A DNA stretch of 64,000 bases, from positions 1 through 64,000 of the forward strand of contig JALHNZ010000009.1 in assembly GCA_022843265.1 (NCBI GenBank), read 5' to 3'. Below are positions 45,479 through 61,636 of the stretch, piece by piece. The position numbers were made by a program, and so were the translations under genes. The stretch is from Gemmatimonadaceae bacterium (GTDB taxonomy: Bacteria > Gemmatimonadota > Gemmatimonadetes > Gemmatimonadales > Gemmatimonadaceae). Every line of letters begins with the position of its first letter. Positions within the stretch are counted from its first letter, which is position 1. Under the pieces are notes generated by a model, which worked only from the letters and a program-made list of their open reading frames with translations, had not been told where the DNA came from and did not search any database.

Positions 45479-47224
45479 GTGCTGCTCGAGCTTCGCCTTC
45501 GCAATGTGGCCGTTATTGAATCGGTCACGTTGCCGCTCACTGCGGGGCTCAACGTGCTCACCGGTGAGACGGGCGCCGGCAAGTCGCTGATCGTTGGTGC
45601 GCTGGGGTTGCTGCTGGGCGAACGCGCCGCGCCCGATCGTATTCGCGCTGGTGCCGATCGTGCGGTGGTAGAGGCCACGTTTGATGCGGGCACGCGCGCT
45701 GATCTGCGCGAGTGGCTCGACGCTCGCGGTGTTGAATCGGAAGACGACGTCTTGATTCTCAAACGCGAAGTGTCGGCAACCGGACGTTCACGTGCGTGGG
45801 TCAACGGTTCGCCTGTCACGATTGCCGTGCTACGCGAACTTGGCGCACAGCTTGTTGCGGTGCACGGTCAGCATGAGGCGCAGCAGTTGCTCGATACTGC
45901 GGCGCAGCGCGCATTGCTCGATGCCTACGCCGGCGCCGCAGGCGAAGCAGAATGTGTGGCGCAAACGCATGCACGCGTGTTGCAGGCAAAAACAGCGCTG
46001 AGCGAACTGCACAGCAAGCGCGCCAACGCGGCGCAGCGCGCTGATTACCTGCGTTTTCTTGTGCACGAAATCGATGCCGCGAATCTTCGAGACGGCGACG
46101 ACGAGCGCGTAGAAGCCGAGCATCGCCGCCTGGCAAACGCCGAGGAGCTGCGTGCGCTCGCGGCTGGGGCATCGCAGCGACTACAAGATTCCGAAGACTC
46201 GGTCACTGAACATCTCGGCGCAGTACGGCGGCAACTCGCCGCACTGCAGCGGATCGATCCTTCGCTTGAGCGACTGTCGTCCATCTTCGATGCGGCGTTC
46301 TTCGCGGCCGAAGAGTTGGCGCGCGAGTTGGTAGAATACGCCGACGGTATTGACGCTGATCCGGCCCGCCTGCGTGAACTCGATGCGCGACGAGCGGTCA
46401 TTCACCAGCTGTTGCGCAAATATGGCCCTTCGCTGCAGGACGTGTTGCTGGCGGCCAACACGGCACGCGAAGAACTCGCCCTCGTAGACGACGCAGACGC
46501 CGCGCACAACGCGCTGCAGGCTGAGCTCGCGCGGGCAGTTGCGGAACGCGCAGAAGCAGCGGCCGCGCTGTCTGACAAACGCAGCGCGGGTTCCGCTCTA
46601 CTTGCCGCGTCCGTTACGGCGTTGCTCCCGGAGCTTGGCATGACCAGTGGCACGTTCGCGGTACGCCTGACGCCACTGCCAGAGCCCGGTGCAAACGGTA
46701 TGGAATCCGTGTCGTTTGTTGCGTCATTGAATGCGGGTCTACCCGCTGGCCCACTCGACCGTGTCGCGTCTGGTGGTGAGCTGGCGCGCGTGATGCTGGC
46801 GCTCAGTACGGTGCTCGCACGTTTGCAACGCGTGCCAACCCTCGTGTTCGATGAGGTGGACGCCGGTGTTGGTGGGGCGGTGGCCTGGCAGGTCGGCGCA
46901 CTCATGCGCGGGGTGGCGGCGCATCATCAGGTGCTCGCGATTTCGCACCTCGCGCAAATCGCCGCCTGTGCACACCATCACGTGGTCGTCCGCAAGGACA
47001 CGAGCACGGCTGGAGCGGCGGGGCTGACGACCGCGGATACTCAGGTCGTGGACAACGACGAGCGTGTGTTGGAACTCGCACGCATGCTCAGCGGCGATGC
47101 GGATCGCGAGATCAGTCGCGCCCACGCGCGAGAACTGCTCGCACGTGGACAGTCGGTAGTCAGCGTTTCGGAAAGCCGCGGAAAATCCGCAACTCGAGGC
47201 GGTCGCGCGCGAGCGAAGGGATAG
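45479..47224 (+). CDS. recN: DNA repair protein RecN
   Basis: LRLRNVAVIESVTLPLTAGLNVLTGETGAGKSLIVGALGLLLGER, VHGQHEAQQLL, VFDEVDAGVGGAVAWQVG, AISHLAQIAACA. Confidence 0.95.
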   Translation: MLLELRLRNVAVIESVTLPLTAGLNVLTGETGAGKSLIVGALGLLLGERAAPDRIRAGADRAVVEATFDAGTRADLREWLDARGVESEDDVLILKREVSATGRSRAWVNGSPVTIAVLRELGAQLVAVHGQHEAQQLLDTAAQRALLDAYAGAAGEAECVAQTHARVLQAKTALSELHSKRANAAQRADYLRFLVHEIDAANLRDGDDERVEAEHRRLANAEELRALAAGASQRLQDSEDSVTEHLGAVRRQLAALQRIDPSLERLSSIFDAAFFAAEELARELVEYADGIDADPARLRELDARRAVIHQLLRKYGPSLQDVLLAANTAREELALVDDADAAHNALQAELARAVAERAEAAAALSDKRSAGSALLAASVTALLPELGMTSGTFAVRLTPLPEPGANGMESVSFVASLNAGLPAGPLDRVASGGELARVMLALSTVLARLQRVPTLVFDEVDAGVGGAVAWQVGALMRGVAAHHQVLAISHLAQIAACAHHHVVVRKDTSTAGAAGLTTADTQVVDNDERVLELARMLSGDADREISRAHARELLARGQSVVSVSESRGKSATRGGRARAKG

Positions 47225-48878
47225 GCGAGTCGCTCGCCGACAACGCGACCTCGTGCGCGAACAGCACCTCGAGGGCAAACTTGGACTTGCCGCGCGCAAA
47301 GGCGGCGAGTGTTGAGTAGGTCAATCCAATCGCACCGAACTGTGCGGAGCCGGATCCCGTCTCGAACACGTCGCCCTCTGCCGGTTCGTATCGATCCGCG
47401 CCGAACGAACGGTAGAGCCACGTGGCCGACACGCCGAACTTGTCACTCAGATTCAGACGCGGTGCCACTTCAAGATCCAGCCGCTGTCCGAGTGTGCGCG
47501 AGACCGCCTGCGGCGCACTGAGAAAGAACAGCTCTGGCAGTCCAGCACCGGGCACGCGTACGACCGCGTTGTCTGCCAGCGGCGTAGTGCTACGAACCGT
47601 GGCTGATACCCATGCACGGTTCTTCCACACCAGATCGGTCGTTGCACGCAGCAGCAGCGCATTGACACCGTCGCCCGTGGCCAGTGCAAACGCCTCGTTC
47701 GCCTGCGCGCTGCTGGCGGTACCAAAGCGCCAGCCTGCGGACCCCAATACGCGCACGCCCGAACGCTGGGTTGCCAGTCGCGCCGACTGGTCACCATTCC
47801 ACGTGTCGTAGAGCAGCACGCGTGCTTCGACATCAACGTCGCCCATGCCGGCGCGAAACGCGGAGGCCAGCGTGTCGGCGCCAACACCAAATACCGAGTC
47901 CTGCGCAATTCGCTGCAAACCATTTGTGCCGTACACAAGCACCGCGCCGTTCGGACCGATTGGTGGTAGCGTGGTGGTGGACAGGAACCTCGTGAAGCCT
48001 TCGCGAATGTCTTCAAGTGATTCCGTCACGGCATTGTGCACAGCGCCGCCTTGCACCGGCACAAGCGGCGACCCCACATTCTGATCATTGCCGTACACCG
48101 CGCCCCACGCTTCGCGAAACGAAGCGACACGTGCAGCCAGCGCCTGTGCGGCGGCAGGATCGGCGCGGATCGCGTCACACTCGGAGCCGGCAGTGGAGGC
48201 TCCACAGCTGGCAATCAAGTTGACCAGCCGCGTACGCTCGTTGCCGAGCTGCACAAAAATGCTGCTGTTCGCCGTGTAACTCGCGGGCGACAGAATGCCA
48301 GGATTTTCACCCACATTCGCGCCAGATCCGTTTCGGTTCAGCACCAGGTTGGCGTTGTGCGTGACTTCGACGTACGGCACGCGCACACCCACACTGATGC
48401 GCCGCGTAACTCCAAAATCGGCTTGCAGCGTGGTGGTGGTACGACGCACCGCGCCGCTCGCTTCGAGCGCGCCGAGCGTCAGGTCGAACGTTGGCAGGCC
48501 GGCAAGCGCGCGAATGCCGCTTTGCGCGTTCGCCAGCGCCGGCAACTGGGTCACGCCAAGCGACGGCGTAGCGAGGGCATCGAGGAGTGGAGACCGTGTG
48601 CCGTCGGCGAGCAGTCTTCGATCCCATTGATCCCAGGCGACGCCGATATTCACGCGCAGGCCGCGGGCCGGAATTGGGATCGCGTCCTCACCCAGACCGG
48701 CCACGGGCTGCGCCGACAGGCGAGGCGCCGCACTCGTCAGGAGAAGGCCTGCCAACAGGACGGTTGGTACTACCGCGAGCAAAGCCCGGGCGGAGCGAAC
48801 TTCAGGGCGTCGGGTCAGAAGAATTCGGGTTGATCGCACAGGGGCAAAACGGGCCGTGCGCCAAGTGTCCGGCATCAC
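47160..48878 (-). CDS. hypothetical exported, probable outer-membrane beta-barrel protein
   Basis: Signal peptide (ALLAVVPTVLLAGLLLTSAAPRLSAQP), alternating barrel-like sequence, near-C-terminal Phe; family not recognised. Confidence 0.65.
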   Translation of the reverse strand: MMPDTWRTARFAPVRSTRILLTRRPEVRSARALLAVVPTVLLAGLLLTSAAPRLSAQPVAGLGEDAIPIPARGLRVNIGVAWDQWDRRLLADGTRSPLLDALATPSLGVTQLPALANAQSGIRALAGLPTFDLTLGALEASGAVRRTTTTLQADFGVTRRISVGVRVPYVEVTHNANLVLNRNGSGANVGENPGILSPASYTANSSIFVQLGNERTRLVNLIASCGASTAGSECDAIRADPAAAQALAARVASFREAWGAVYGNDQNVGSPLVPVQGGAVHNAVTESLEDIREGFTRFLSTTTLPPIGPNGAVLVYGTNGLQRIAQDSVFGVGADTLASAFRAGMGDVDVEARVLLYDTWNGDQSARLATQRSGVRVLGSAGWRFGTASSAQANEAFALATGDGVNALLLRATTDLVWKNRAWVSATVRSTTPLADNAVVRVPGAGLPELFFLSAPQAVSRTLGQRLDLEVAPRLNLSDKFGVSATWLYRSFGADRYEPAEGDVFETGSGSAQFGAIGLTYSTLAAFARGKSKFALEVLFAHEVALSASDSPIPSLARDRLELRIFRGFPKR

Positions 48879-48968
48879 GGGGGCAATCGGCTAGATTAGC
48901 CCGATCGTCCAAGCCCGTCAACGCGACGGGTACGCGTGCTGATAGCGTCCTGCGTCCTCAAGGGTTCC

Positions 48969-50765
48969 GTGTCCGACTCTCCTCGCTCCATTCCGTCCGT
49001 GCCGTGGCAGACCACGGGCAATCACTGGCTGTCGCTACCGTGCATTCACCCGGCCAACGGTGCGATCTACGCGCTTGGCGTGTTGCATCGCGGGGCGCGT
49101 GCGGCCGTCGAGTTCGCGGGCGCCCGCGGCTTCGTCGAGGGCGAGGGCACCCCGCTCTTGAAGCCAGTGATTCGCGTGGATGGCGAGGTGCGCGAACTGG
49201 CGAGTGAGGGCATCGCCTGGGAACGCGCCGTTGGCTGGCTGCCCACCTTTACGTGCACGCTCGGCTCACTGCTGCTCCGCGGGACTGTATTCGCGCCGTA
49301 TGGGCGCGATGCCGATATGGCCGGTGCTGTGTACGCGATCACCATCGAGAATCGAGGCACAAACGCGCACCGTGTGGAGCTTGCACTCGAAGGAGTGCTG
49401 GGGCACCGCCAGCAGCGCGTGCGCACGCCGCGCGACTTCGACGATGCGCATCGTGTTGTGCTCGGCCACAACGAGACGATCATCCTTGAAGGGGCGGCGG
49501 TGCCTGGTATGGTGGCGGTTGCGATTGGCGCCGACGGCGAGGCCACGCGTGAAATCGGCGATGACGTGAACGGCGCTATAGCGTTCGCCGTGCGTCGGAC
49601 GCTCACTGTAGAAGCTGGGCAGTCCGTGCCGTGCGCGTTCTACCTCGCTGTCGGACCGGAACGCGACGGTGCGTGTGCCACGGTTGGTGTGTTGCGTCGG
49701 CGTGGCTGGCGCACGCTGCTCGCGGCCACGCGCGAGGCATTGCAGCAGCTGGAGCAGACGACTGGGCAGGATGCCATCGACCGACTCGTCAATCGCAACT
49801 TGCTCTTCTGCTACTTCTACGGTGTCGGACGTGGTCTCGATGACGCGCACTATTATCTCGTACGCACTCGAGCGCCCTGGCATAGTCTCGGCGCGACCGT
49901 GCGTGACTGGGAAGCGCTCATGTGGACGTTGAGCGCCGTGCAGCTGGCCGATAACGCACTCGCGCGTGAGTTGCTTGTGCGAACGTGTGAACTGCACGGG
50001 TACGCGCCGGGCCAGGGCGTGCATTATCTCGATGGTACCTTGTTTGAGCCGGGCTTCGCGATTGAAGGAGCGGCCGCGTATCCGATTGCCGTGGATCGCT
50101 ACATTCGCGCGTCTGACGATGACCAGATCGTGGAAGAGCCTGTGGTTGCCGATACGCTCTACGTGGCAAACGATGATCTGGTCGCGCGTCGTGACGAGCG
50201 GTTGCCGTTGTATTCGACCGAGGTGAGTCCGAGCGGACAGCCGGTACGGTTTCCGTTTACGCTGCACGGCAATGCTGTCGTTGCTGCAGCACTTGACGTA
50301 CTGCGTCGCACGCTCGATGAAGAGGCGGCGCGCGATGTCGAGGACCCGGCCGCAGTGCGCGCCGCCATGCAGCGCCATTTTGCACAGGATCGTGGTGGCA
50401 AAGCGCATCTTGCCGCCGCGATCGATCTGGCCGGTGGGGCGGATCAGGTTGACGATCCCGCGGCTTCTGTGTTGTGGCTTCCGCTGTACGACGCGCTCGA
50501 TCGCGATGATTCGCTGTTCCGGCGCTCCGTTCGTGCCGTGGCGCCGGACGATGGCGGACTCTTGCGTCAGATTGCGCGCTTGCTCGGGCCCGATGGCAAT
50601 ACGGTGTTGCAGTGGCTGCGTCGTGCACCGTTGGATCAGGGGATCGCCGCGTCCGTGGTGGATACTGACGGGCGTGGCGTCGCCGATGGTGGCGATGCGG
50701 CGCTCGCCGGATTGCTCGCGTCGACGGTCTGGTATGCGTCGCACGCACTCGGTTTGCACGAATGA
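48969..50765 (+). CDS. conserved hypothetical, possible (alpha/alpha)6-barrel glycosidase-like protein
   Basis: N-terminal beta-sandwich-like region then helical repeats (RDWEALMWTLSAVQLADNALARELLVRTCELHGYAPG); family assignment tentative, start uncertain (48936 or 48969). Confidence 0.5.
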   Translation: MSDSPRSIPSVPWQTTGNHWLSLPCIHPANGAIYALGVLHRGARAAVEFAGARGFVEGEGTPLLKPVIRVDGEVRELASEGIAWERAVGWLPTFTCTLGSLLLRGTVFAPYGRDADMAGAVYAITIENRGTNAHRVELALEGVLGHRQQRVRTPRDFDDAHRVVLGHNETIILEGAAVPGMVAVAIGADGEATREIGDDVNGAIAFAVRRTLTVEAGQSVPCAFYLAVGPERDGACATVGVLRRRGWRTLLAATREALQQLEQTTGQDAIDRLVNRNLLFCYFYGVGRGLDDAHYYLVRTRAPWHSLGATVRDWEALMWTLSAVQLADNALARELLVRTCELHGYAPGQGVHYLDGTLFEPGFAIEGAAAYPIAVDRYIRASDDDQIVEEPVVADTLYVANDDLVARRDERLPLYSTEVSPSGQPVRFPFTLHGNAVVAAALDVLRRTLDEEAARDVEDPAAVRAAMQRHFAQDRGGKAHLAAAIDLAGGADQVDDPAASVLWLPLYDALDRDDSLFRRSVRAVAPDDGGLLRQIARLLGPDGNTVLQWLRRAPLDQGIAASVVDTDGRGVADGGDAALAGLLASTVWYASHALGLHE

Positions 50766-50834: not shown

Positions 50835-50907
50835 GCGGGAATAGCTCAGTTGGTAGAGCACAACCTTGCCAAGGTTGGGGTCGCGGGTTCGAGTCCCGTT
50901 TCCCGCT
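50835..50907 (+). tRNA. tRNA-Gly (GCC)
   Basis: Cloverleaf: acceptor GCGGGAA/TTCCCGC, AGCTCAGTTGGTAGAGC D-arm, anticodon loop CTTGCCAAG, GGTTCGAGTCC T-arm. Confidence 0.95.
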
Positions 50908-50941
50908 CTGTGCTGTAGGTTCGTTGGTAGTTACGGGAAGG

Positions 50942-50962
50942 GGAGCGGTGCATGACCGCTCC
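50942..50962 (+). terminator. terminator-like hairpin between tRNA-Gly and tRNA-Leu
   Basis: GGAGCGGT-GCATG-ACCGCTCC followed by TTTCGCGTTTTC. Confidence 0.65.
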
Positions 50963-50978
50963 TTTCGCGTTTTCGGTG

Positions 50979-51062
50979 GCCCGGATGGCGAAACCGGTAG
51001 ACGCGGGGGCCTTAAAAGCCCCTGTCCGCAAGGACATGCGGGTTCGAGTCCCGCTTCGGGCA
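50979..51062 (+). tRNA. tRNA-Leu (TAA)
   Basis: Acceptor GCCCGGA/TTCGGGC, anticodon CTTAAAA (TAA), long variable arm CCTGTCCGCAAGGACAT, T-arm GGGTTCGAGTCCC; 84 nt. Confidence 0.95.
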
Positions 51063-51086
51063 CTCATCACCACGTAGGAGACCGGC

Positions 51087-51308: not shown

Positions 51309-51399
51309 TCCAGCGTTGTTACTGCACTGATCTTGCGCTGATCCTCACTGGGCCGCAAAGTGGCTCAGGTGCGCGTTCACGTCATGGCAAGGGGATGGG

Positions 51400-54300
51400 G
51401 TGGCTACTGGGGAGACGATTGGGCTCGCGGCGGTAGCTCCGCCTGAGCCTCAGCGCAACGCGTTGCGCTCACGAGACGACTGGAACGCCGCGCGCGCAGC
51501 GTGCGAGGCCGATCCGGGACGCTATCACGGCGACATCGCGGCGCACACGCTGCATTGGTTTGATGCGTCCCTCGGGGATCATGGTGCGTGGATCACACAT
51601 GATGAGATCACCGGTGCCTGGGCCGGGTGGGACGCGCAGACACTGCAGCCTCTCGCTCCCACGCGAGACGCAGCATGGCGTCCGTGGAAGCGCGCGTTCA
51701 ACGATGATCACGCGCCGTGGTATCGCTGGTTTGAAGGAGCGCTCACCAACGCCGGCTTTAACGAGGTCGATCGCCACGTGCTCGCTGGGCACGGTGCCGA
51801 GCCCGCGTTTCTCGTGGAAGGCGATCGGTGGGATCAATCGCGAGATAACGGCCGCGGCGCGCCGGTTGTCTCGTATCCGATCTCGCGGAAAGGATTGCTT
51901 GTCGATGTCGCCAAAGCCGCGCTCGCTTTGCGCACACTCGGGTTGAAGACGGGTGATCGCATTGCGCTCAATCTTCCCAACATTCCGCAACAGATCGCGT
52001 GGACGGAAGCGGCCAAGCGCCTTGGCATCTTGTACACGCCGGTCTTTGGTGGCTTCTCCGACAAGACGCTGGCCGATCGCATTCATGATGCCGGCGCACG
52101 CGTTGTGATTACGGCGGACGGCGGCTGGCGCAACGCGCAGATCATTCCATTCAAGGCGGCGTACACGGATCCCGCGCTTGACCAGTACATCGCCGCGGAT
52201 CGTGCGGTGCACGTGGTGCGTGAGGCGCTCGGCGCACTTTCGCTGGACAGCGCGCAGGTTGAGCTCATTACACGCAGCGCTGCCGAGGCGGTCTCGGGTG
52301 AAATCACGGTGGAGCGGCGTGATGCGATGCGTGGCGTTGGTCGCGCGTTGCTTTCGCTGACCGAGTCCGGCGCGCTCGACGCGTCGGACGCGAGCCGCGT
52401 GCGAACGGCGGTGGCGCGTGCGCTTGTTGACGCGGGTTCATCGGTTGAACGCGTGGTCGTGGTGAAATACACGGCCCAGGCCGATGTACCATGGCGCGCG
52501 GGACGTGATGTGTGGGAAGATGAACTGCTCGGACCCGCGAGTACTGCATTGATCGAGGCCGCACGAGCTTTCGGGCATGACGTGTCGACAGAAGCCGAGT
52601 TGCGTGAGCTGCCAGACATCGAGCTGGTGCGCGTGGTGTGGTCTCTGGTTCCACCAGTTCCGGTCGACAGCGAGTTTCCGCTCTTTTTCATCTACACGTC
52701 TGGCTCCACCGGCAAACCAAAGGGCGTGGTGCATGTGCATGGCGGTTGGACCGCCGGCGTTGCGCACACCATGCGCATCGCGTTTGATGCACAGCCTGGT
52801 GATGTGATGTATGTGGTCGCGGACCCCGGTTGGATTACGGGGCAGAGTTACATGATCTCAGCGGCGCTCACGACGCGCACCACCAGTGTGCTTGCCGAAG
52901 GCGCACCCGTGTTTCCGTCAGCGGGACGTTTTGCATCGATCATTGAGCGGTACAACGTGCGCATTTTCAAGGCGGGCGTCACGTTCCTCAAGGCAGTGAT
53001 GCAGGATCCGCAGAACGCCGAAGATGTGCGGCGATACAATGTGTCGTCACTGCGTGTAGCAACGTTTTGCGCCGAGCCCACATCGCCAACAGTGCAGGAG
53101 TTTGGCATGTCGCTCCTCACGCCCTGGTACATCAACTCGTACTGGGCCACGGAGCACGGCGGCATTGTCTGGACGCACTTTTTTGGCAACGGCGATTTTC
53201 CGCTGCGTGCCGATGCGCACACGTATCCGCTGCCGTGGGTCATGGGCGATGTGTGGCTGGCCGATGGTGCGCCTGATGCAGACGGTCGCTTTGCGCCACG
53301 TGTTGCCGACGAGGGTGAAAAGGGTGAGGTGGTCATCACGGCCCCGTATCCGTACCTCGCGCGTACGATCTGGGGTGATGTTTCGTCGTTCAAGGTGGAG
53401 GGCTACGGCGTGTCGTCGCAGTGGCGCGGCGACATTGATCGTTACCGCTCCACGTACTGGAGCCGCTGGCAGGGGCGCTGGGCGTACACGCAGGGAGATT
53501 TTGCGGTGCGTTATCCCGATGGCGGATTCTCATTGCATGGACGAAGCGATGATGTGATCAACGTGTCCGGGCATCGCATGGGCACGGAAGAAATCGAAGG
53601 CGCGATTCTGCGAGACAAACAGCTCAATGCCGATTCACCGATTGGCAACGTGATCGTGGTTGGTGCACCGCATCGTGAAAAAGGACTCACGCCGCTCGCG
53701 TTCGTGACGATTGCACCGGGCCGTCGCCTGACGGCGGATGACCGTCGTCGACTCATTGAGCTCGTGCGCCAGGAGAAGGGCGCGGTTGCGGTGCCTGAAG
53801 ATTTTCTCGAGGTCCCGGCGTTCCCCGAAACACGCAGCGGCAAGTACGTGCGACGTCTCCTCCGCGCACTGGTGGAGGATCAGCCGCAGGGTGATCTCAG
53901 CACGCTTCGCAATCCGGAGTGTGTACCGGCGCTTCAGCGTGTGATTGGCGAATGGAAGGCGCGGCAGCGCATACGTGAGTCGCAGCGCATCCTGGAGCAT
54001 GGTCGCTACTTCCGCGTGCAGTACCATACGGTGGCGCAAGCCAACGGCGAAGCTGTTCGCATGGCGCTGGTCACGGTCACGAACGCGCCGGTGAACGCAC
54101 TCAACGAGCGCGCGCTCGATGAACTCGTCACAGTTGTTGAACATCTGTCGCGCCGGAGCGATGTCGCGGCCGTCATCTTCACGGGTGAAGGAACGTCATC
54201 ATTTGTGGCCGGCGCTGACATTCGTCAGTTGCTGGAAGATGTGCACACCGTTGAAGAAGCCGTCACACTTCCAAACGTGGCGCACCTGGCGTTCCGCACG

Positions 54301-56883
54301 ATTGAACGCATGAACAAGCCGTGCATTGCGGCGATCAATGGTGTGGCCCTCGGCGGCGGTATGGAGTTTGCCCTGGCCTGTCACGTTCGCATCGCGGAGC
54401 AGAAGGCGCTGTTCGGACAGCCAGAGATTCGATTGAACCTGCTCCCCGGGTACGGCGGCACGCAGCGGCTCACGCGCCTGCTGGCTGATCGCGATGGCAT
54501 GGAGGGCGTGGTGCAGGCCGTGGAAATGCTCGTCGGCGGGCGCACCATTACCGCGGGTGAGGCACTAGGTATTGGTGTGGTAGATGAAGTGGTGAGCGAT
54601 GCGCAGGACGTTGTGGCGCATGCCTCAGCCCTCGTGCGCGACTACATCGCCGACCGTGAACACAGCAAGCTCGGCAAGACATTCCGACATGTGCGCGATC
54701 GTCGCGACGCGTGGGAAAAGCCCGGTGCGCTCGATCTGCAACAGGCATTTGCCTTGCCTCCAGTGGTGCGCTTGTTGGAGCAAGCCGAGCGTGTCGGTCG
54801 TGCGACCCACGCGGCGCGCGTGCTTGATGCGGTTGAAACGGGATGGCGAGAAGGTTTGCTCGCCGGTCTCGCGCATGAAGCACAGCTCTTTGCATCCGCG
54901 GTCGTAGACCCCGAGGCGGGCAAGGCAGGTATTCGCGCCTTCTTCGATCGCGCCAGTGCGCCGCTGCCCGTTCGGCGCGGCGCGATCGTTGATGCGGACC
55001 GCGAAGCCGATCTTGCAGCGCGTGGCGAGCTGCTTCCCGTGGGTGCACCGTTCTTCCCGGGACTCACCGCCATTCCGTCGTGGCAGTATGGCCTTGGTGT
55101 CATCAAGGATCCGGATACCGGTGCATCGCGTCACGGTGAACCCGCACAGGTCGAGCAGCAGGTTGTGGTGCCGGTGGAAACACCGGGCCCCAACGACGTA
55201 CTGCTTTATGTGCTCGCGTCTGAAGTGAACTTTAATGACATCTGGGCGATCACGGGCATCCCCGTTTCGCCGTTTGATTCGCACGATCGCGATGTGCAGG
55301 TCACCGGGTCCGGTGGTGTTGGTCTGGTGGTGTCCATCGGCGATGCGGTCAAGTCTGATGGTCGTGTGCGTGTTGGCGATCTCGTCACGATCTACTCGGG
55401 GCAGAGCAGCTTGCTGTCGCCGCTCGCGGGCCGCGATCCCATGTCGGCTGATTTTCGAATTCAGGGCTACGAAACCTTTGAGGGCAGTCATCAGCAATTC
55501 TTGCTGGTGCAAGCGCCACAGTGTCATCCGCTCCCACCAGACGTTACACTCGAAGCGGCGGGCTCGTACATTCTGAATCTCGGCACGATTGTACGCGCAC
55601 TCTTTACCACGCTGCAGATTACGGGCGGCCGCACCATGTTCGTGGAGGGTGCAGCGACGGGCACGGGTCTCGAAGCGCTCAAGACGGCGGTTGCGCACGG
55701 TGTGAAGGTTACCGGTCTTGTGTCGAGCGACGAGCGCGCGCAAACGGTCAGGTCGTTCGGCGCAACAGGCGCCATCAATCGTCGTAGCGCGGGGATTGCG
55801 GACTGCTTCACGATGGTGCCGGGTGACGCCGCCGCCATCGCGACGTGGGAAGCCGAGGGACAGCCACTGCTCGATGCGTTTCGCGCTCAGCACGAGGGCA
55901 AACTCGCGGACTACGTGGTGTCACACGCAGGTGAACAGTCGTTCCCCCGAAGCGTACAGCTGCTCGCCGAGGGTGGATCACTCGCGTTCTACGGTGCGTC
56001 CACCGGCTACCACTTCACGTTCGCCGGAAAGCCAGGTGCGGTGAATGTGAACACGATGTACGAACGAGCTGGCCTGGTTGCCGGTGAAGCCGTGCTTGTG
56101 TACTACGGTCCTGGCCTCGCGGCCGACGCCCTCGTTGATGCTGTCGGCATTGAAGCCATTGAGGCGGCTGCCGCACGACGCGCGCGTATCGCGGTGGTGT
56201 GTTACACAGACGCGCAGCGCGAGTTCGTACGCTCGCTCGGCTTTGGCGATCAACTCGCGGGCGTTGTCGCGCTCGATGAGCTGCGTCGACGCGCGAGTAT
56301 GGAGTTCGATTGGCCCAGCACCATGCCGCCGCTACCCGACGTACGCCGTGATCCCATGGCTTTCAAGGAGGCCGTGCGCGCATTTCAGGAGCGCACGATC
56401 AAGCCGCTCGGACAGGCGGTGGGCAAGTTGCTGCGTTCCTCCGACAATCCACGCGGTGCGCCCGACCTGATCTTTGAGCGCGCCGCGCACGACGCGCTCG
56501 CCGCGTCGACCGCACTGGTGCAGCCGTTCAGCGGACGCATCGTGTATGCGGAAGACATGCAGCACAAGCGCTACAGCTTCTACGCCCCGCAAGTCTGGAT
56601 GCGTCAACGACGCATTCTTCTTCCCACGTGCAGCATTCTCGGCACTCATCTCTGCAACGCCTACGAGGTTGTCCGCATGAATCAGATGCTCGCCGCTGGT
56701 CAGTTGGATGTCACGGCCCCAACCGTGGTCCCGTGGAACGACTTGCCGGAAGCGCATCAGGCCATGTGGGAGAATCGCCACGCTGGTGCCACCTACGTGG
56801 TGAATCACGCGCTGCCCGCAACGGGATTGCGTTCACGCGATGAACTGTACGAAGCGTGGGCTTCGGGGAGCAGCAACGTATGA
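51400..56883 (+). CDS. pcs: propionyl-CoA synthase: 3-hydroxypropionyl-CoA synthetase / 3-hydroxypropionyl-CoA dehydratase / acryloyl-CoA reductase fusion
   Basis: 1827 aa. ACS domain: FIYTSGSTGKPKGVVHVHGGW, YWATEHGGIVWTHFFGN, ETRSGKYVRRLLR. ECH domain: FVAGADIRQLLED, NGVALGGGMEFALACH, LPGYGGTQRL. MDR/ECR domain: ASEVNFNDIWAITGIPVSPFDSHDRD, FVEGAATGTGLEALKTA. Order and length match Chloroflexus aurantiacus PCS from memory. GTG start preceded by AAGGGGA. Confidence 0.95.
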   Translation: MATGETIGLAAVAPPEPQRNALRSRDDWNAARAACEADPGRYHGDIAAHTLHWFDASLGDHGAWITHDEITGAWAGWDAQTLQPLAPTRDAAWRPWKRAFNDDHAPWYRWFEGALTNAGFNEVDRHVLAGHGAEPAFLVEGDRWDQSRDNGRGAPVVSYPISRKGLLVDVAKAALALRTLGLKTGDRIALNLPNIPQQIAWTEAAKRLGILYTPVFGGFSDKTLADRIHDAGARVVITADGGWRNAQIIPFKAAYTDPALDQYIAADRAVHVVREALGALSLDSAQVELITRSAAEAVSGEITVERRDAMRGVGRALLSLTESGALDASDASRVRTAVARALVDAGSSVERVVVVKYTAQADVPWRAGRDVWEDELLGPASTALIEAARAFGHDVSTEAELRELPDIELVRVVWSLVPPVPVDSEFPLFFIYTSGSTGKPKGVVHVHGGWTAGVAHTMRIAFDAQPGDVMYVVADPGWITGQSYMISAALTTRTTSVLAEGAPVFPSAGRFASIIERYNVRIFKAGVTFLKAVMQDPQNAEDVRRYNVSSLRVATFCAEPTSPTVQEFGMSLLTPWYINSYWATEHGGIVWTHFFGNGDFPLRADAHTYPLPWVMGDVWLADGAPDADGRFAPRVADEGEKGEVVITAPYPYLARTIWGDVSSFKVEGYGVSSQWRGDIDRYRSTYWSRWQGRWAYTQGDFAVRYPDGGFSLHGRSDDVINVSGHRMGTEEIEGAILRDKQLNADSPIGNVIVVGAPHREKGLTPLAFVTIAPGRRLTADDRRRLIELVRQEKGAVAVPEDFLEVPAFPETRSGKYVRRLLRALVEDQPQGDLSTLRNPECVPALQRVIGEWKARQRIRESQRILEHGRYFRVQYHTVAQANGEAVRMALVTVTNAPVNALNERALDELVTVVEHLSRRSDVAAVIFTGEGTSSFVAGADIRQLLEDVHTVEEAVTLPNVAHLAFRTIERMNKPCIAAINGVALGGGMEFALACHVRIAEQKALFGQPEIRLNLLPGYGGTQRLTRLLADRDGMEGVVQAVEMLVGGRTITAGEALGIGVVDEVVSDAQDVVAHASALVRDYIADREHSKLGKTFRHVRDRRDAWEKPGALDLQQAFALPPVVRLLEQAERVGRATHAARVLDAVETGWREGLLAGLAHEAQLFASAVVDPEAGKAGIRAFFDRASAPLPVRRGAIVDADREADLAARGELLPVGAPFFPGLTAIPSWQYGLGVIKDPDTGASRHGEPAQVEQQVVVPVETPGPNDVLLYVLASEVNFNDIWAITGIPVSPFDSHDRDVQVTGSGGVGLVVSIGDAVKSDGRVRVGDLVTIYSGQSSLLSPLAGRDPMSADFRIQGYETFEGSHQQFLLVQAPQCHPLPPDVTLEAAGSYILNLGTIVRALFTTLQITGGRTMFVEGAATGTGLEALKTAVAHGVKVTGLVSSDERAQTVRSFGATGAINRRSAGIADCFTMVPGDAAAIATWEAEGQPLLDAFRAQHEGKLADYVVSHAGEQSFPRSVQLLAEGGSLAFYGASTGYHFTFAGKPGAVNVNTMYERAGLVAGEAVLVYYGPGLAADALVDAVGIEAIEAAAARRARIAVVCYTDAQREFVRSLGFGDQLAGVVALDELRRRASMEFDWPSTMPPLPDVRRDPMAFKEAVRAFQERTIKPLGQAVGKLLRSSDNPRGAPDLIFERAAHDALAASTALVQPFSGRIVYAEDMQHKRYSFYAPQVWMRQRRILLPTCSILGTHLCNAYEVVRMNQMLAAGQLDVTAPTVVPWNDLPEAHQAMWENRHAGATYVVNHALPATGLRSRDELYEAWASGSSNV

Positions 56884-59800
56884 GCGAGACAACACCAGGC
56901 ACCGCGGATCGCCGTCGCGCCCCTCGCGGCAGACTCGCAGGCAAGGTCGTGCTGCTCACCGGTGCGGCCGGCAACATTGGCACGCAAATCTCCAGACAGC
57001 TGCTGCGCGAAGGCGCAACTTTGGTGATGAGCGGGCGGGATCAGGCGCGACTCGACACTGCCAAAGCGGCTCTGCGTGAAGAGCTGCACGTACCGGCGTC
57101 ACGCATACTCACCGTGGTGATGGATGGCGCGGAGCCGGGTCAGGTGCGTGTCGGAGTGGAGCAGGTGATGGCGAAGGCCGGTCGTATTGACGTGCTGGTG
57201 AACAATGCCGGATCTGCGGGCCCGAAGTGCCGTTTGCATGATGTGCCATTCACCGCTGGCGAATTGGAAGCGCTCGCGGAAGTGGGTGTGCATGAAAAGG
57301 AGACAGTGAGCGCGGCCGCACGAAATTTGTTCGGCATTGCGTGGAATCTTGTGCGCGCCTGCGTACCGCACATGAAGGCCGGCAGTACCATCATTAACGT
57401 CTCCACCATTTTCTCCCGCACGCAGTACTACGGTCGCTCCGCGTACGTAGTGCCGAAGGCAGCGCTGAATAGCTTCTCCAAGCAGCTCGCTGCGGAAATC
57501 GGGCCGCTCGGCATTCGTGTAAACACAGTGTTTCCCGGCCCGATTCGTTCGGAGCGTATTCGGACGGTGTTTTCGGCCATGGACAAGCTGCGTCATGTCG
57601 ATGACGGTACAACCGCGAAAGAAAACTTTGACCTGATGACGCTTGCGCGCTCAGTAGACGGCGCGCCTCCGGAGCGCACGTTCCCGAGTGTCGAAGACGT
57701 GGCCAACACCATTGTATTCCTGTCGACCGATGAATCGGCGGCGTACAACGGTCACAACTTTGAGGTCACACATGGAATGCGCGTCCGTCAGGAATCGCGC
57801 AGTACATGGGTATCGCGTCCTGAACTGCGCACCGTCGACGGTACGGGAGTGCGCGTATTGCTGGCCGCAGGTGATCAGGTCAAGGACGCGTTGACCGTGG
57901 CCCGTGTACACGCCGGCTGTGGCGCGGAAGTCGTACTGGGTCTCGGCTCCGAAGAAGGTGTGCAGGCGGCGCAGGAAGCGCTCGGCGCCAGTCCCGGTGA
58001 CGAACGCATTCGCCCCGTGTTGCTCGATCGGATGCGTCCGGACACCGTGGACAGCCTGTTCGAGTCCTTGCGACATGAAGATGCGATCGTGCACGGTGCG
58101 ATCATCATGCCGGCGTTCGGCGCGTGGCGTTTCCGTGGTCGATTCACCGATGCATCAGACAGCGACGTGTCAACATTCATCGATGGCGAAATCGCGGGTA
58201 CCATGTTGCTGGCGCGAGCGCTCACCGTGTTCTGGAAAGATGTGGAGCACGAACTGAGCATGCCGCCGAGCATTGCGTTTGTCACCAATGGTGATGACGG
58301 TGCCGGCAACAACTACGCCGATGTCTTGCGAGCCGCCACTGAAGAGTTGTGCCGCGTGTGGCGCGATGAGACCGAGGTACAGCAGGCCTCCGGAGAGCGT
58401 CGATTCGAAGAATGGTCCAACCAGATCATTCGCTGGGGAAATCGCGAGCCGGAAGAGGTGCCGTTTGCGGCCGGGCAATCTGCGCGTTTGCTGTACACGC
58501 GTCGTCGTATTCGACAGGTAAACCTGTACCTGCCGCTTTCCATCGTGCGCGCGACCGGCTCACGTCGCTCCTCGTTTGGCTGGATGGAGAACGTGATGGG
58601 CTTGCACCTGGGTAAGGTTGCGCTCATCACCGGCGGTTCTGCAGGTATCGGCGGACAGCTGGCGCGACTGCTCGCCATCGGCGGCGCGCGTGTCATGCTC
58701 GTCGCGCGTCGAGCTGACCAGCTGAAAGAAATGCGCGACAGCATTGTCACGGAGCTGGAAGACATCGGGTACTACGACGCGCCAGATCGTGTGCAATGTG
58801 TGGCTGATGTGGATGTCGCTGATGAAGCGAGTCTCCGCCGAGCGGTAGACGAAACGCTCGCTGCCTATGGTCGCGTTGACTACTTGATAAACAACGCGGG
58901 CGTTGCCGGCGCGGAGCAGATGGTCGTGGACATGGATGTCGAGACATGGCGCAATACGCTCAACGCCAACCTTGTCTCGAACTATTCATTGATCGAAAAA
59001 ATCGTCCCGATCATGAAGAAGCAGGGTAGTGGATACATCCTGAATGTGTCGTCGTACTTTGGCGGTGAAAAGTACATTGCTGTGCCGTATCCCAATCGTG
59101 CCGACTACGCGGTGTCCAAGGCCGGTCAGCGTGCACTCACGGAAAACCTCGCCCGTTTTGTTGGGCCGGAGATTCAGGTCAACGCAATTGCCCCCGGTCC
59201 TGTTGACGGTGATCGACTGCGCGGTGTTGGAGGTAAACCCGGCCTGTTCGAGCGCCGCGGCAAGCTGATTCTTGAGAATCGCCGACTGAACTCGGTGTAC
59301 AAAGCCGTCATCGACGCGCTGCGCGCCGGTGCGCAGGTCGCAGACCTGCTGGCGCTGTTGCAGGGCAATGATGTCGACGCCATCGCAACCGACGAGAAGG
59401 CACCGGCGGCGTTGCGAAAGCTCGCAGACAGTATCCGCGCGGAATCGCTCGCGGCCGATACAGAAGCCAGCTCGGGTCGTTTCCTGATGACGAGAAGTAT
59501 CGCCCAGCGCCTCGTGGCGCGCCTGCGCCTTGGTGGACGTTTTCTCTCACTGCCTCAGGACGCGCCGCAGTACGACGACGCCTGGTTGCTCGCCATTCCG
59601 GATGCAGTCGAACCCTTTATTGATCGTGATCAGATCAAGCGTGAAGCGAGCAAGATCGGCAAGGGTGTGCTGAGCATGTTGCACCTGCGCAATATGCCGG
59701 GCGAGCTCGAAGTGGCACTGGCCACGGTGTATTTCCTCGCGGACCGTGCCGTGTCGGGCGAAACGTTCCAGCCATCAGGCGGCCTGCATCAGGAGCGCAC

Positions 59801-60578
59801 CATCACGGAGCGCGAGCTGTTCGGTCGTGCGAAGCCGGAGCGCATTGCGCGTATGGCGCAGCAGACGATCTGGCTTGTTGGCGACTATCTGTATCCCCAC
59901 CTTGCGCGTGCCGCGCGACTCGCGCTCGAGTACAGTCACGTGGGACGCATCATGTTGCTGACGCGCACGGCCGAGGCTGCGGCGCAAACGCAGGACTTGC
60001 TGCGCATTGTGCTTGGTAACGAGCGTGTGCACAGCATCGTGGTTGGTGACGATCTCGACGCGGGAATGGACGAGGCACTGCGTGTTGGTGGGCAACCGGC
60101 CGCGGTGGTGTCCACACCGTTCGAGCCGCTACCGCGCGAGCTCTTCAACGCGGATGGTTCGGCTGCGCTCGATGCGGCGGGCTTCGCATCACTTGTGGAA
60201 GAACACCTCACCCATCACTTCCGTGTCGCGCGCAAGGTGTCACTGTTTGACGACGTGCGACTGGTTCTGGTGTCTCCGGACGTACCAGTACACCCCACGC
60301 ACGCCGAGTTCGCGCTCGCAAACTTTGTCAAGACCACGTTGCACGCCCTCACCGCCACGCTCGGCGTGGAGAATGAGCGTCTCGTGCATAACGTGCCCGT
60401 CAATCAGATCAACCTCACGCGTCGCGTGCGCTCGGAAGAGCCGCGTGACGCCCGTGAGCAGGCGGAAGAACAGGAGCGTTTTGCCCACGCGGTGCTGCTC
60501 GCCAGCGCCCCGTTGCCGGATCAGGAAGACAGCCGGTACAGATCGCGTATTTACCGAGGCTTGGCCATCACCGTCTGA
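56880..60578 (+). CDS. mcr: malonyl-CoA reductase (bifunctional, 3-hydroxypropionate-forming), two fused SDR modules
   Basis: N-terminal SDR: LTGAAGNIGTQISRQLL, NNAGSAG, YVVPKAALNSFSKQLAAEIG. C-terminal SDR: LHLGKVALITGGSAGIGGQLARLL, INNAGVAGAEQMVVDM, NVSSYFGGEKYIAVPYPNRADYAVSKAGQRALTEN; terminus YRSRIYRGLAITV resembles Chloroflexus MCR. ATG at 56880 overlaps the pcs stop. Confidence 0.95.
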   Translation: MSETTPGTADRRRAPRGRLAGKVVLLTGAAGNIGTQISRQLLREGATLVMSGRDQARLDTAKAALREELHVPASRILTVVMDGAEPGQVRVGVEQVMAKAGRIDVLVNNAGSAGPKCRLHDVPFTAGELEALAEVGVHEKETVSAAARNLFGIAWNLVRACVPHMKAGSTIINVSTIFSRTQYYGRSAYVVPKAALNSFSKQLAAEIGPLGIRVNTVFPGPIRSERIRTVFSAMDKLRHVDDGTTAKENFDLMTLARSVDGAPPERTFPSVEDVANTIVFLSTDESAAYNGHNFEVTHGMRVRQESRSTWVSRPELRTVDGTGVRVLLAAGDQVKDALTVARVHAGCGAEVVLGLGSEEGVQAAQEALGASPGDERIRPVLLDRMRPDTVDSLFESLRHEDAIVHGAIIMPAFGAWRFRGRFTDASDSDVSTFIDGEIAGTMLLARALTVFWKDVEHELSMPPSIAFVTNGDDGAGNNYADVLRAATEELCRVWRDETEVQQASGERRFEEWSNQIIRWGNREPEEVPFAAGQSARLLYTRRRIRQVNLYLPLSIVRATGSRRSSFGWMENVMGLHLGKVALITGGSAGIGGQLARLLAIGGARVMLVARRADQLKEMRDSIVTELEDIGYYDAPDRVQCVADVDVADEASLRRAVDETLAAYGRVDYLINNAGVAGAEQMVVDMDVETWRNTLNANLVSNYSLIEKIVPIMKKQGSGYILNVSSYFGGEKYIAVPYPNRADYAVSKAGQRALTENLARFVGPEIQVNAIAPGPVDGDRLRGVGGKPGLFERRGKLILENRRLNSVYKAVIDALRAGAQVADLLALLQGNDVDAIATDEKAPAALRKLADSIRAESLAADTEASSGRFLMTRSIAQRLVARLRLGGRFLSLPQDAPQYDDAWLLAIPDAVEPFIDRDQIKREASKIGKGVLSMLHLRNMPGELEVALATVYFLADRAVSGETFQPSGGLHQERTITERELFGRAKPERIARMAQQTIWLVGDYLYPHLARAARLALEYSHVGRIMLLTRTAEAAAQTQDLLRIVLGNERVHSIVVGDDLDAGMDEALRVGGQPAAVVSTPFEPLPRELFNADGSAALDAAGFASLVEEHLTHHFRVARKVSLFDDVRLVLVSPDVPVHPTHAEFALANFVKTTLHALTATLGVENERLVHNVPVNQINLTRRVRSEEPRDAREQAEEQERFAHAVLLASAPLPDQEDSRYRSRIYRGLAITV

Positions 60579-60640: not shown

Positions 60641-61636
60641 ATGACAGACGTCGTTGCACTCGCCACTGAATTGCTCTCCATTGACTCGTCCACCGGCCGC
60701 GAACGCGAGGCGGTGGACGTCGTTGGCCGCTGGCTCGTTGCCCGGGGGTGGAACGTCACCCTGCAGGAAGTCGAGCCCGGCCGCAGTAATGTCTGGGCCA
60801 CGCGTGCTGGAGGCGGGGTCACGCTCTCCACGCATCTTGATACGGTGCCACCGTACATCGCGCCGCGTCTCGACGATGGCCGACTGTACGGGCGCGGTGC
60901 ATGCGACGCCAAGGGGATCGCGGCCGCGATGCTGGTGGCTGCGCAGCAGCTCGTGGACTCGGGAGAGGAACGCGTGGACCTGCTGTTTGTGGTCGGTGAA
61001 GAGAAGGGCTCGCCGGGCGCTCGTGCGGCGAACCGCCTGCCAGCTACCAGCCGGTGGTTGGTGAATGGTGAGCCCACGGAAAGCAAACTCGCATCAGGTG
61101 CGAAAGGCGCGCAGCGCGTGATTGTGCGTGTGCGCGGACGTGAAGCGCACTCGGCGTATCCAGAGTTTGGTAGCAGTGCGCTTGATCCGTTGCTCGCGCT
61201 GCTCCCGCAGGTGCGCGATCTCCCGCTGCCGAGCGACGCCGTGCTTGGTATGACGACCAGCAACATCGGTGTGCTGCGCGCGGGGACCGAAGCGAATGTG
61301 ATTCCGGGACTCGCCGAAGCGGAAATCATGATTCGCCTGGTTGGTGACGTGGCACCAGTCAAGAAAGTGTTTGAAGAGTGGGCCAAAGGCCGCGCCGAGT
61401 TGGAGTGGGGCTCGTTCATTCCCGCGCAGCGCTTTCACACGATCGATGGCTTTGACGTCGCACCGGTCGCGTTTACCACGGACATTCCACTGCTCAGCCG
61501 CTGGGGCACACCGCTGCTGTTTGGTCCGGGTTCGATTCACGTTGCGCACACGCCCGACGAGCACATTGCCGTTACCGAACTGCGAGACGCGGTGTCGGCG
61601 TACGTGCGCATCGTGGAGGCATTGCTCGCGACATGA
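60641..61636 (+). CDS. M20 family metallo-hydrolase (LysK/ArgE/DapE-like)
   Basis: LSTHLDTVPPYIAP, LYGRGACDAKGIAAAMLVAA, FVVGEEKGSPGARAAN; neighbours asd and lysC. Confidence 0.85.
   Translation: MTDVVALATELLSIDSSTGREREAVDVVGRWLVARGWNVTLQEVEPGRSNVWATRAGGGVTLSTHLDTVPPYIAPRLDDGRLYGRGACDAKGIAAAMLVAAQQLVDSGEERVDLLFVVGEEKGSPGARAANRLPATSRWLVNGEPTESKLASGAKGAQRVIVRVRGREAHSAYPEFGSSALDPLLALLPQVRDLPLPSDAVLGMTTSNIGVLRAGTEANVIPGLAEAEIMIRLVGDVAPVKKVFEEWAKGRAELEWGSFIPAQRFHTIDGFDVAPVAFTTDIPLLSRWGTPLLFGPGSIHVAHTPDEHIAVTELRDAVSAYVRIVEALLAT

Follow-up and report, generated by a model that had tools for sequence, protein, structure and literature searches.

What is the role of a gene pair for two enzymes of the 3-hydroxypropionate (3HP) bi-cycle in the genome of a member of the Gemmatimonadaceae? 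The pair, pcs-mcr, encodes a propionyl-CoA synthase (PCS) and a bifunctional malonyl-CoA reductase (MCR) and is located in the stretch of 64,000 nucleotides analysed here (the window), which is part of contig 9 of a 4.63-Mb metagenome-assembled genome (MAG; 211 contigs, 95 % complete, 2.11 % estimated contamination). Enzymes of the MCR family convert malonyl-CoA to 3-hydroxypropionate (3-HP) with 2 NADPH, and MCR and PCS together convert malonyl-CoA to propionyl-CoA at the expense of 3 NADPH and ATP. The observed basis for an answer consists of gene content, gene order, active-site conservation, purifying selection and co-occurrence. From these, it appears probable that a phototrophic member of the Gemmatimonadaceae possesses the complete 3HP bi-cycle, most likely for photomixotrophic co-assimilation of CO2.

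Sequence comparison confirms the products of the two genes (Table 1) as full-length PCS and full-length MCR. PCS is a single polypeptide with the Pfam domain order AMP-binding, ECH_1 and ADH_N/ADH_zinc_N, i.e., acyl-CoA synthetase, enoyl-CoA hydratase and reductase, and its residues 16–1825 align collinearly with residues 15–1844 of the Erythrobacter PCS (6eqo; 2416 bits). Motifs are present (i) in the synthetase, with the P-loop YTSGSTGKPKG at residue 432, GRSDDVI at 714 and the SGK lysine motif at 813–815, and (ii) in the hydratase, with GADI at 938 and PEI at 1008; (iii) the reductase domain scores 216 bits with TIGR01751, a crotonyl-CoA carboxylase/reductase-type model, which is under the model cut-off. 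MCR contains two adh_short regions (Pfam), and its entire sequence matches the solved Roseiflexus/Chloroflexus enzymes (8hi4, 1198 bits; 8hjw, 1185 bits), its C-terminal half additionally matching 6k8s (814 bits). The 13 catalytic or ligand-contacting positions of the Roseiflexus enzyme (RfxMCR) compiled from PMC10470521 and mapped through the alignment, a set to which RfxMCR Arg1164 does not belong, are all identical in the window MCR. In the first short-chain dehydrogenase/reductase domain (SDR1), these are the triad Thr176-Tyr189-Lys193 (RfxMCR Thr165-Tyr178-Lys182) and the ligand residues Tyr183 and Arg186 (Tyr172, Arg175); the others, in the C-terminal half, are Ser725, Tyr737, Arg740, Tyr743, Lys747, Arg779, Leu789 and Arg793 (Ser731, Tyr743, Arg746, Tyr749, Lys753, Arg785, Leu795 and Arg799), of which Ser725, Tyr737, Arg740, Tyr743, Lys747 and Arg793 make up the SDR3 residues. 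The Ser-Tyr-Lys residues of SDR3, the YXXRXXY motifs and the substrate-binding Arg are all kept. Relative to congeners, dN/dS amounts to 0.09–0.11 for pcs and 0.08–0.09 for mcr. A first-pass annotation made from the DNA sequence had already described two adjacent giant reading frames on the same strand as pcs and mcr; their coordinates and lengths were reproduced exactly, the bases of the ATGA overlap between both genes read as stated, and the proposed identities are borne out by full-length similarity, catalytic residues and phylogenetic trees. An alternative GTG start of mcr at 56856 (1240 aa) was considered, but the overlapping ATG is preferred.

Genes for the second cycle form two divergent units on contig C2 (locus L041, 6202–13147), with meh reading in one direction and smtA-smtB-mct-mcl-mch in the other. 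Their products are assigned as follows: (i) Mct matches 7xkg (4e-197) and 8apq (1e-196; 2-methylfumaryl-CoA isomerase), (ii) Mcl matches 6kin (2e-198) and 4l7z (7e-198), (iii) Mch matches 4e3e (2e-155) and 8hgn (2e-126), and (iv) two adjacent family-III CoA transferases (L041, 7278–9751), sharing 68–82 % identity with their counterparts in proteobacterial islands, represent putative SmtA and SmtB, named from CoA-transferase family and operon position. The weakest assignment of the pathway set is the candidate Meh (298 aa), the match of which to a FAS1-like dehydratase (21.5 bits) falls just below the Pfam cut-off of 22; its naming follows from fold family and from the position of the gene, which in the islands is oriented divergently to smtA or mct.

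For the further conversion of propionyl-CoA, the genome harbours meaB, the large and small subunits of methylmalonyl-CoA mutase (MCM) and one carboxyltransferase on contig 75, an epimerase on contig 41 (134.8 bits, cut-off 114.95), and, on contig 9 itself, several consecutive genes for carboxyltransferase and biotin carboxylase 13 kb 3' of mcr; these biotin-dependent acyl-CoA carboxylases are the candidates for carboxylation of propionyl-CoA and acetyl-CoA. Across all eight genes of pcs-mcr and the second-cycle set, dN/dS ranges from 0.03 to 0.21. The first-pass annotation had cautioned against assuming a full bi-cycle and had suggested searching the genome for carboxylase, epimerase and mutase as well as for smtAB, mcl, mch, mct and meh. 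While this caution was reasonable, biotin-dependent carboxylase genes, epimerase and MCM subunits were all found and the second-cycle genes form a run, with Mct, Mcl and Mch assigned by similarity to solved enzymes and SmtA, SmtB and the candidate Meh by family and position, so that the genome does contain a second cycle as well as a route for propionyl-CoA.

The same genome encodes PufL (423 bits, cut-off 266), PufM (513 bits, cut-off 364) and PufC (351 bits, cut-off 150), genes that lay beyond the view of the first-pass annotation. Judged from these type-II reaction-centre genes, the host is of the anoxygenic phototroph type. Isocitrate lyase (ICL) was searched for in the genome and not found. 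The single RuBisCO homologue scores 132.7 bits, while genuine RuBisCO of two other genomes of the phylum (G127 and G152) reaches 452 bits, and the homologue reads VIIMPGLGDRMM where the RuBisCO of G127 reads IHAGTIVGKLEGD. Since its score is low and the loop-6 lysine is missing, the homologue is regarded as RuBisCO-like, and CO2 fixation by RuBisCO was ruled out for this genome. RuBisCO-like proteins of this sort have been reported for lake phototrophic Gemmatimonadota.

The distribution of these traits was surveyed in 399 evenly sampled Gemmatimonadota genomes, 17 of which encode PCS and 12 Mct, all 12 also being PCS-positive. Reaction-centre genes are present in 14/17 PCS genomes versus 32/382 others, including 11 of the 12 Mct-positive genomes, whereas ICL occurs in none of the 17 PCS genomes versus 110/382 others. 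Fisher's exact p-values for association with PCS are 2e-19 (Mct), 5e-12 (reaction centre) and 0.005 (ICL), values which are too optimistic due to kinship among the genomes. In the single-contig genome G074, pcs (at 1,214,052), mct (1,567,997) and puf (2,084,478–2,086,132) reside on one molecule. Mct is lacking from five of the 17 PCS genomes. Among these are G127 and G152 (loci L051 and L050), phototrophic representatives of another family which combine pcs-mcr with genuine RuBisCO; a complete bi-cycle and genuine RuBisCO were never observed together among the 17 PCS genomes.

According to the proposed scheme, the two genes of the locus would form an operon that covers the conversion of malonyl-CoA to propionyl-CoA, one half of the 3HP bi-cycle. 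MCR would reduce malonyl-CoA to 3-HP with 2 NADPH, and PCS would convert 3-HP to propionyl-CoA inside one protein, consuming ATP, CoA and NADPH. Propionyl-CoA may then be carboxylated and rearranged to succinyl-CoA, from which SmtAB would form malyl-CoA, and Mcl would subsequently release glyoxylate and acetyl-CoA. Glyoxylate and a further propionyl-CoA would be converted via Mcl, Mch, Mct and Meh to pyruvate and acetyl-CoA. The predicted outcome is light-powered co-assimilation of CO2 combined with anaplerosis, i.e., photomixotrophic growth in which acetate, propionate, 3-HP, glycolate and comparable compounds are used along with bicarbonate, while full photoautotrophy could be possible given an electron donor. 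Enzyme activities, direction of flux, coupling to light and any autotrophy are what we infer from the genes.

Photomixotrophy is favoured because PCS genomes almost invariably encode a reaction centre and have no glyoxylate shunt, and because a similar use of the enzymes has been suggested for related phototrophs: in Porphyrobacter, the 3HP genes are up in daytime and were proposed to serve CO2 co-assimilation (PMC10674011). Several observations weigh against it. First, pcs-mcr, the second cycle and puf are located on different contigs of the MAG, a concern to which same-genus genomes and the single-contig genome G074 give only an indirect answer. Second, three of the 17 PCS genomes (G123, G334 and G355) have no reaction-centre match, so light is not obligatory for PCS carriers. 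Third, no NiFe hydrogenase was found in the window genome, where sulfur, CO and other electron donors were not searched. Fourth, cultured phototrophic Gemmatimonas need organic carbon (PMC8779627).

A purely heterotrophic use is a possible, if unlikely, alternative: the enzymes would assimilate acetate, propionate, 3-HP, acrylate, glycolate or glyoxylate, or provide a sink for NADPH and carbon, in place of the glyoxylate shunt, with light just sparing respiration. The general absence of ICL from PCS genomes agrees with such a function, the bi-cycle of Chloroflexus co-assimilates organic compounds (as cited in PMC9802188), and the PCS genomes devoid of Mct imply that PCS-MCR must have some use by itself. 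Partial cycles in Kentron were likewise interpreted as heterotrophic; however, Kentron-type use retains the second cycle without MCR and PCS (PMC6593406), whereas both halves are under purifying selection here. Moreover, MCR and PCS catalyze costly reductive steps which should be better suited to net CO2 assimilation with surplus reductant, and the prevalence of reaction centres among PCS genomes also speaks against an exclusively heterotrophic role.

True photoautotrophy, with the bi-cycle as main carbon source in the light as in Chloroflexus and with sulfide, thiosulfate, CO or some other inorganic compound as electron donor, is judged improbable. The complete gene set alongside a reaction centre, without true RuBisCO and ICL, would be compatible with it; in addition, sulfur-oxidation genes accompanied mcr in a Gemmatimonas MAG from a glacier (PMC13184969), and in cryoconite supplied with 13C-bicarbonate the 13C-heavy DNA showed an enrichment of Gemmatimonadota, a result with no link to the 3HP pathway (PMC12011081). 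Opposed to this stand the missing NiFe hydrogenase and the organic carbon requirement of the cultured phototrophic relatives. NiFe hydrogenases of two score classes were observed in the PCS genomes G186, G136, G204, G334, G339 and G290, where they could supply electrons for autotrophy.

An origin of pcs-mcr or the second cycle from a proteobacterium or member of the Chloroflexota in the same sample, i.e., a binning or contamination artefact, is very improbable. The contamination estimate of the MAG and the close PCS relatives in gammaproteobacterial MAGs might point in this direction, but ribosomal-protein and other housekeeping genes share the window contig, the second cycle is present in all three congeners, and pcs-mcr occupies the same chromosomal site (recN, tRNA-Gly and tRNA-Leu on the left, M20, asd and lysC on the right) in the window genus, G074 and G204. 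Contamination was thus ruled out by synteny in congeners together with G074, the one contig of which carries pcs, mct and puf. That the proteins are polyketide or fatty-acid style multidomain enzymes merely resembling PCS and MCR is extremely improbable, for although generic acyl-CoA synthetase, hydratase and dehydrogenase/reductase domain matches are common by themselves, both proteins match the solved enzymes collinearly over their full length with every mapped catalytic residue kept, and pcs adjoins mcr in most pseudomonadotal and gemmatimonadotal loci, in several with second-cycle genes adjacent.

Conservation of the site extends beyond these genomes: the tRNA-Gly/tRNA-Leu pair precedes pcs in G339 and G123 as well, in total at seven loci besides that of the window (L022, L047, L048, L049, L052, L054 and L059; five genera), and the M20 gene follows mcr in L047, L048, L049, L052 and L054. 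Identity to the window PCS decreases from 83 % (G244), 82 % (G186) and 81 % (G146) to 70 % (G074) and 66 % (G204), and that of RecN in the same order from 68, 66 and 64 % to 58 and 52 %. Hence, several genera have retained pcs-mcr at a single location, and vertical descent at a fixed site suits the data, since both flanks are conserved and PCS and RecN identities fall together. A recent island at a tRNA, which the tRNA-Gly/tRNA-Leu edge resembles, is disfavoured on the same grounds.

Phylogenetic analysis with proteobacterial homologues, as proposed by the first-pass annotation, groups the window PCS and MCR with those of Gemmatimonadota and Pseudomonadota. Since the 68 rows of the PCS tree were all collected along with the window family, this tree locates the window protein within PCS and does not bear on its distinction from other fusions; in it, Chloroflexota form a separate clade (support 100), while the window protein falls with named pseudomonadotal PCS, ruling out a Chloroflexota origin of the window PCS. 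The MCR tree (46 rows) contains just two Chloroflexota rows, both of which serve as its root, so that its evidence is confined to the remaining rows. Supported branches of both trees require that Gemmatimonadota and Pseudomonadota exchanged genes several times. In the tree of second-cycle proteins, which is informative for the shallower branches, the window stays with its congeners.

Three gammaproteobacterial MAG loci (L062, L063 and L064; 74 % PCS and 72–73 % MCR identity) are nested inside the Gemmatimonadota clade, and the flanks seen contain no second-cycle genes, which suggests transfer of pcs-mcr by itself. The very divergent pair of L060 (G290:C301, 3181–16975; 54 and 45 % identity), adjoined by meh, smtA, smtB and mct, forms the longest branches in the PCS and MCR trees, diverging outside the other Gemmatimonadota and Pseudomonadota, and possibly represents an old lineage of the pathway. 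PCS homologues with 56–59 % identity also occur in L093 and L119 (Aneurinibacillus, Bacillota) and L138 (Natronococcus, a haloarchaeon), with no mcr within the stretch seen; these perhaps serve 3-HP or acrylate assimilation. As a tentative extension that we hold to be somewhat doubtful, phototrophic Gemmatimonadaceae of several genera might be natural 3HP photoautotrophs or photomixotrophs, with pcs-mcr as an old, vertically inherited one-site trait, and some Pseudomonadota (e.g., L062–L064) might have received the genes from Gemmatimonadota and not the reverse.

The gene arrangement differs among phyla. In L055/L072 (one contig; L072 is Gemmatimonadetes S09.Bin022), the eight genes form a single cluster, with meh divergent from smtA-smtB-mct-mcl-mch-pcs-mcr, and the identical order is found in the betaproteobacterial loci L073, L113, L118 and L132, three of which are named Burkholderiales. 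The Burkholderiales MAGs and the two Gemmatimonadales MAGs of PMC9802188 share with the window genome the complete gene set including the glyoxylate operon, a set that is split over two loci in the window genome. Common to the window genome and Chloroflexus aurantiacus/Roseiflexus are MCR, PCS, SmtA, SmtB, Mct, Mcl, Mch, probably Meh, the propionyl-CoA carboxylation route, MCM and epimerase, as well as the pairing of bi-cycle and type-II reaction centre. In contrast to the Chloroflexales, where pcs occurs without nearby mcr or mcr precedes pcs (L105, L139), pcs comes first in a single operon in the window, and, differing from the Chloroflexota, the second-cycle genes form one run with divergent meh and PCS belongs to another clade. 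Phototrophic Alphaproteobacteria (Erythrobacter NAP1, Porphyrobacter and Novosphingobium) share the order pcs then mcr (PCS 59–62 %, MCR 49–56 % identity) and the link with aerobic phototrophy, but no second-cycle genes are present within the flanks seen, whereas in the window genome the set is complete; Porphyrobacter ULC335 was described without the full 3HP pathway (PMC10674011).

Within the phylum, the window genome shares puf genes with Gemmatimonas phototrophica and the soda-lake MAGs, for which a Calvin cycle was described (PMC8779627), and a RuBisCO-like protein with lake phototrophic MAGs, which were reported to lack carbon-fixation genes (PMC8547001). Carbon-fixation genes otherwise reported for phototrophic Gemmatimonadota are RuBisCO-based (PMC8779627, PMC10581226), and the main text of the 2023 phylum survey makes no mention of hydroxypropionate (PMC10581226). 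The 3HP pathway and its presence in Gemmatimonadota have already been reported: in 2022 the bi-cycle was described outside Chloroflexota, including two Gemmatimonadales MAGs, which constitutes direct prior art (PMC9802188), and in 2026 mcr was reported in a Gemmatimonas MAG from glacier ice (PMC13184969). Together with the 17 PCS genomes found here, these reports contradict the view of the first-pass annotation that the module would be unexpected in Gemmatimonadota, its guess of a gemmatimonadotal host being correct. In the text of PMC9802188, the Gemmatimonadales bi-cycle is linked with inorganic electron donors and not with phototrophy, whereas the window genome possesses reaction-centre genes.

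Features of the locus are compiled in Table 1. A plausible ribosome-binding site (AAGGGG, 51389–51394) is located 5' of the pcs start codon. Some listed reading frames at 50835–51063 are spurious translations of the tRNA pair. Further to the left, two long conserved neighbours without any Pfam match are encoded at 47163–48878 (minus strand, 572 aa) and 48936–50762 (plus strand, 609 aa), the latter sharing 58–87 % identity with the counterparts of relatives at the same site.

Table 1. Features of the pcs-mcr locus in the window, and the RuBisCO homologue encoded elsewhere in the genome; reactions are those predicted for the respective domains
Feature	Position	Strand	Remarks
pcs, propionyl-CoA synthase (PCS)	51400..56883	+	1827 aa, GTG start, trifunctional fusion
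mcr, bifunctional malonyl-CoA reductase (MCR)	56880..60578	+	1232 aa, ATG start
ATGA, mcr ATG overlapping pcs TGA	56880..56883	+	direct sequence reading
PCS acyl-CoA synthetase domain, 3-HP to 3-HP-CoA	51679..53940	+	residues ~94-847; AMP-binding, AMP-binding_C (Pfam)
PCS enoyl-CoA hydratase domain, 3-HP-CoA to acrylyl-CoA	54049..54924	+	residues ~884-1175; ECH_1 E=2.5e-36
PCS NADPH enoyl-CoA reductase domain, acrylyl-CoA to propionyl-CoA	55123..56874	+	residues ~1242-1825; ADH_N, ADH_zinc_N
MCR N-terminal half, SDR1-SDR2, malonate semialdehyde to 3-HP	56925..58571	+	residues mapped onto RfxMCR
MCR C-terminal half, SDR3-SDR4, malonyl-CoA to malonate semialdehyde	58572..60575	+	residues mapped onto RfxMCR
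tRNA-Gly(GCC), left edge of conserved chromosomal site	50835..50908	+	ARAGORN, Rfam
tRNA-Leu(TAA), 5' of pcs	50979..51063	+	ARAGORN, Rfam
M20-family deacylase gene, right edge of site, outside pathway	60641..61636	+	Peptidase_M20
RuBisCO-like protein	G000:C11:50502-51269 (L180)		loop-6 lysine missing

Photoheterotrophy is the usual description of phototrophic Gemmatimonadota, apart from a few soda-lake representatives with a Calvin cycle. No statement of a complete 3HP bi-cycle in phototrophic Gemmatimonadota was found in the open-access literature searched, an absence which is not proof of novelty; what appears new here is the systematic coupling of the bi-cycle to phototrophy in this phylum, no description of which was found in that literature. 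The ordered eight-gene set shared between phyla bears on how phototrophs of the Chloroflexota, Pseudomonadota and Gemmatimonadota acquired the pathway, and candidate genomes for testing have been identified, one of them (G074) on a single contig. The bi-cycle beside a reaction centre in nearly all Mct-positive genomes adds to the predictions for Gemmatimonadota a second route by which light could drive CO2 fixation; thus, this phylum of soil and water probably contains bacteria which fix CO2 with light by a non-Calvin route.

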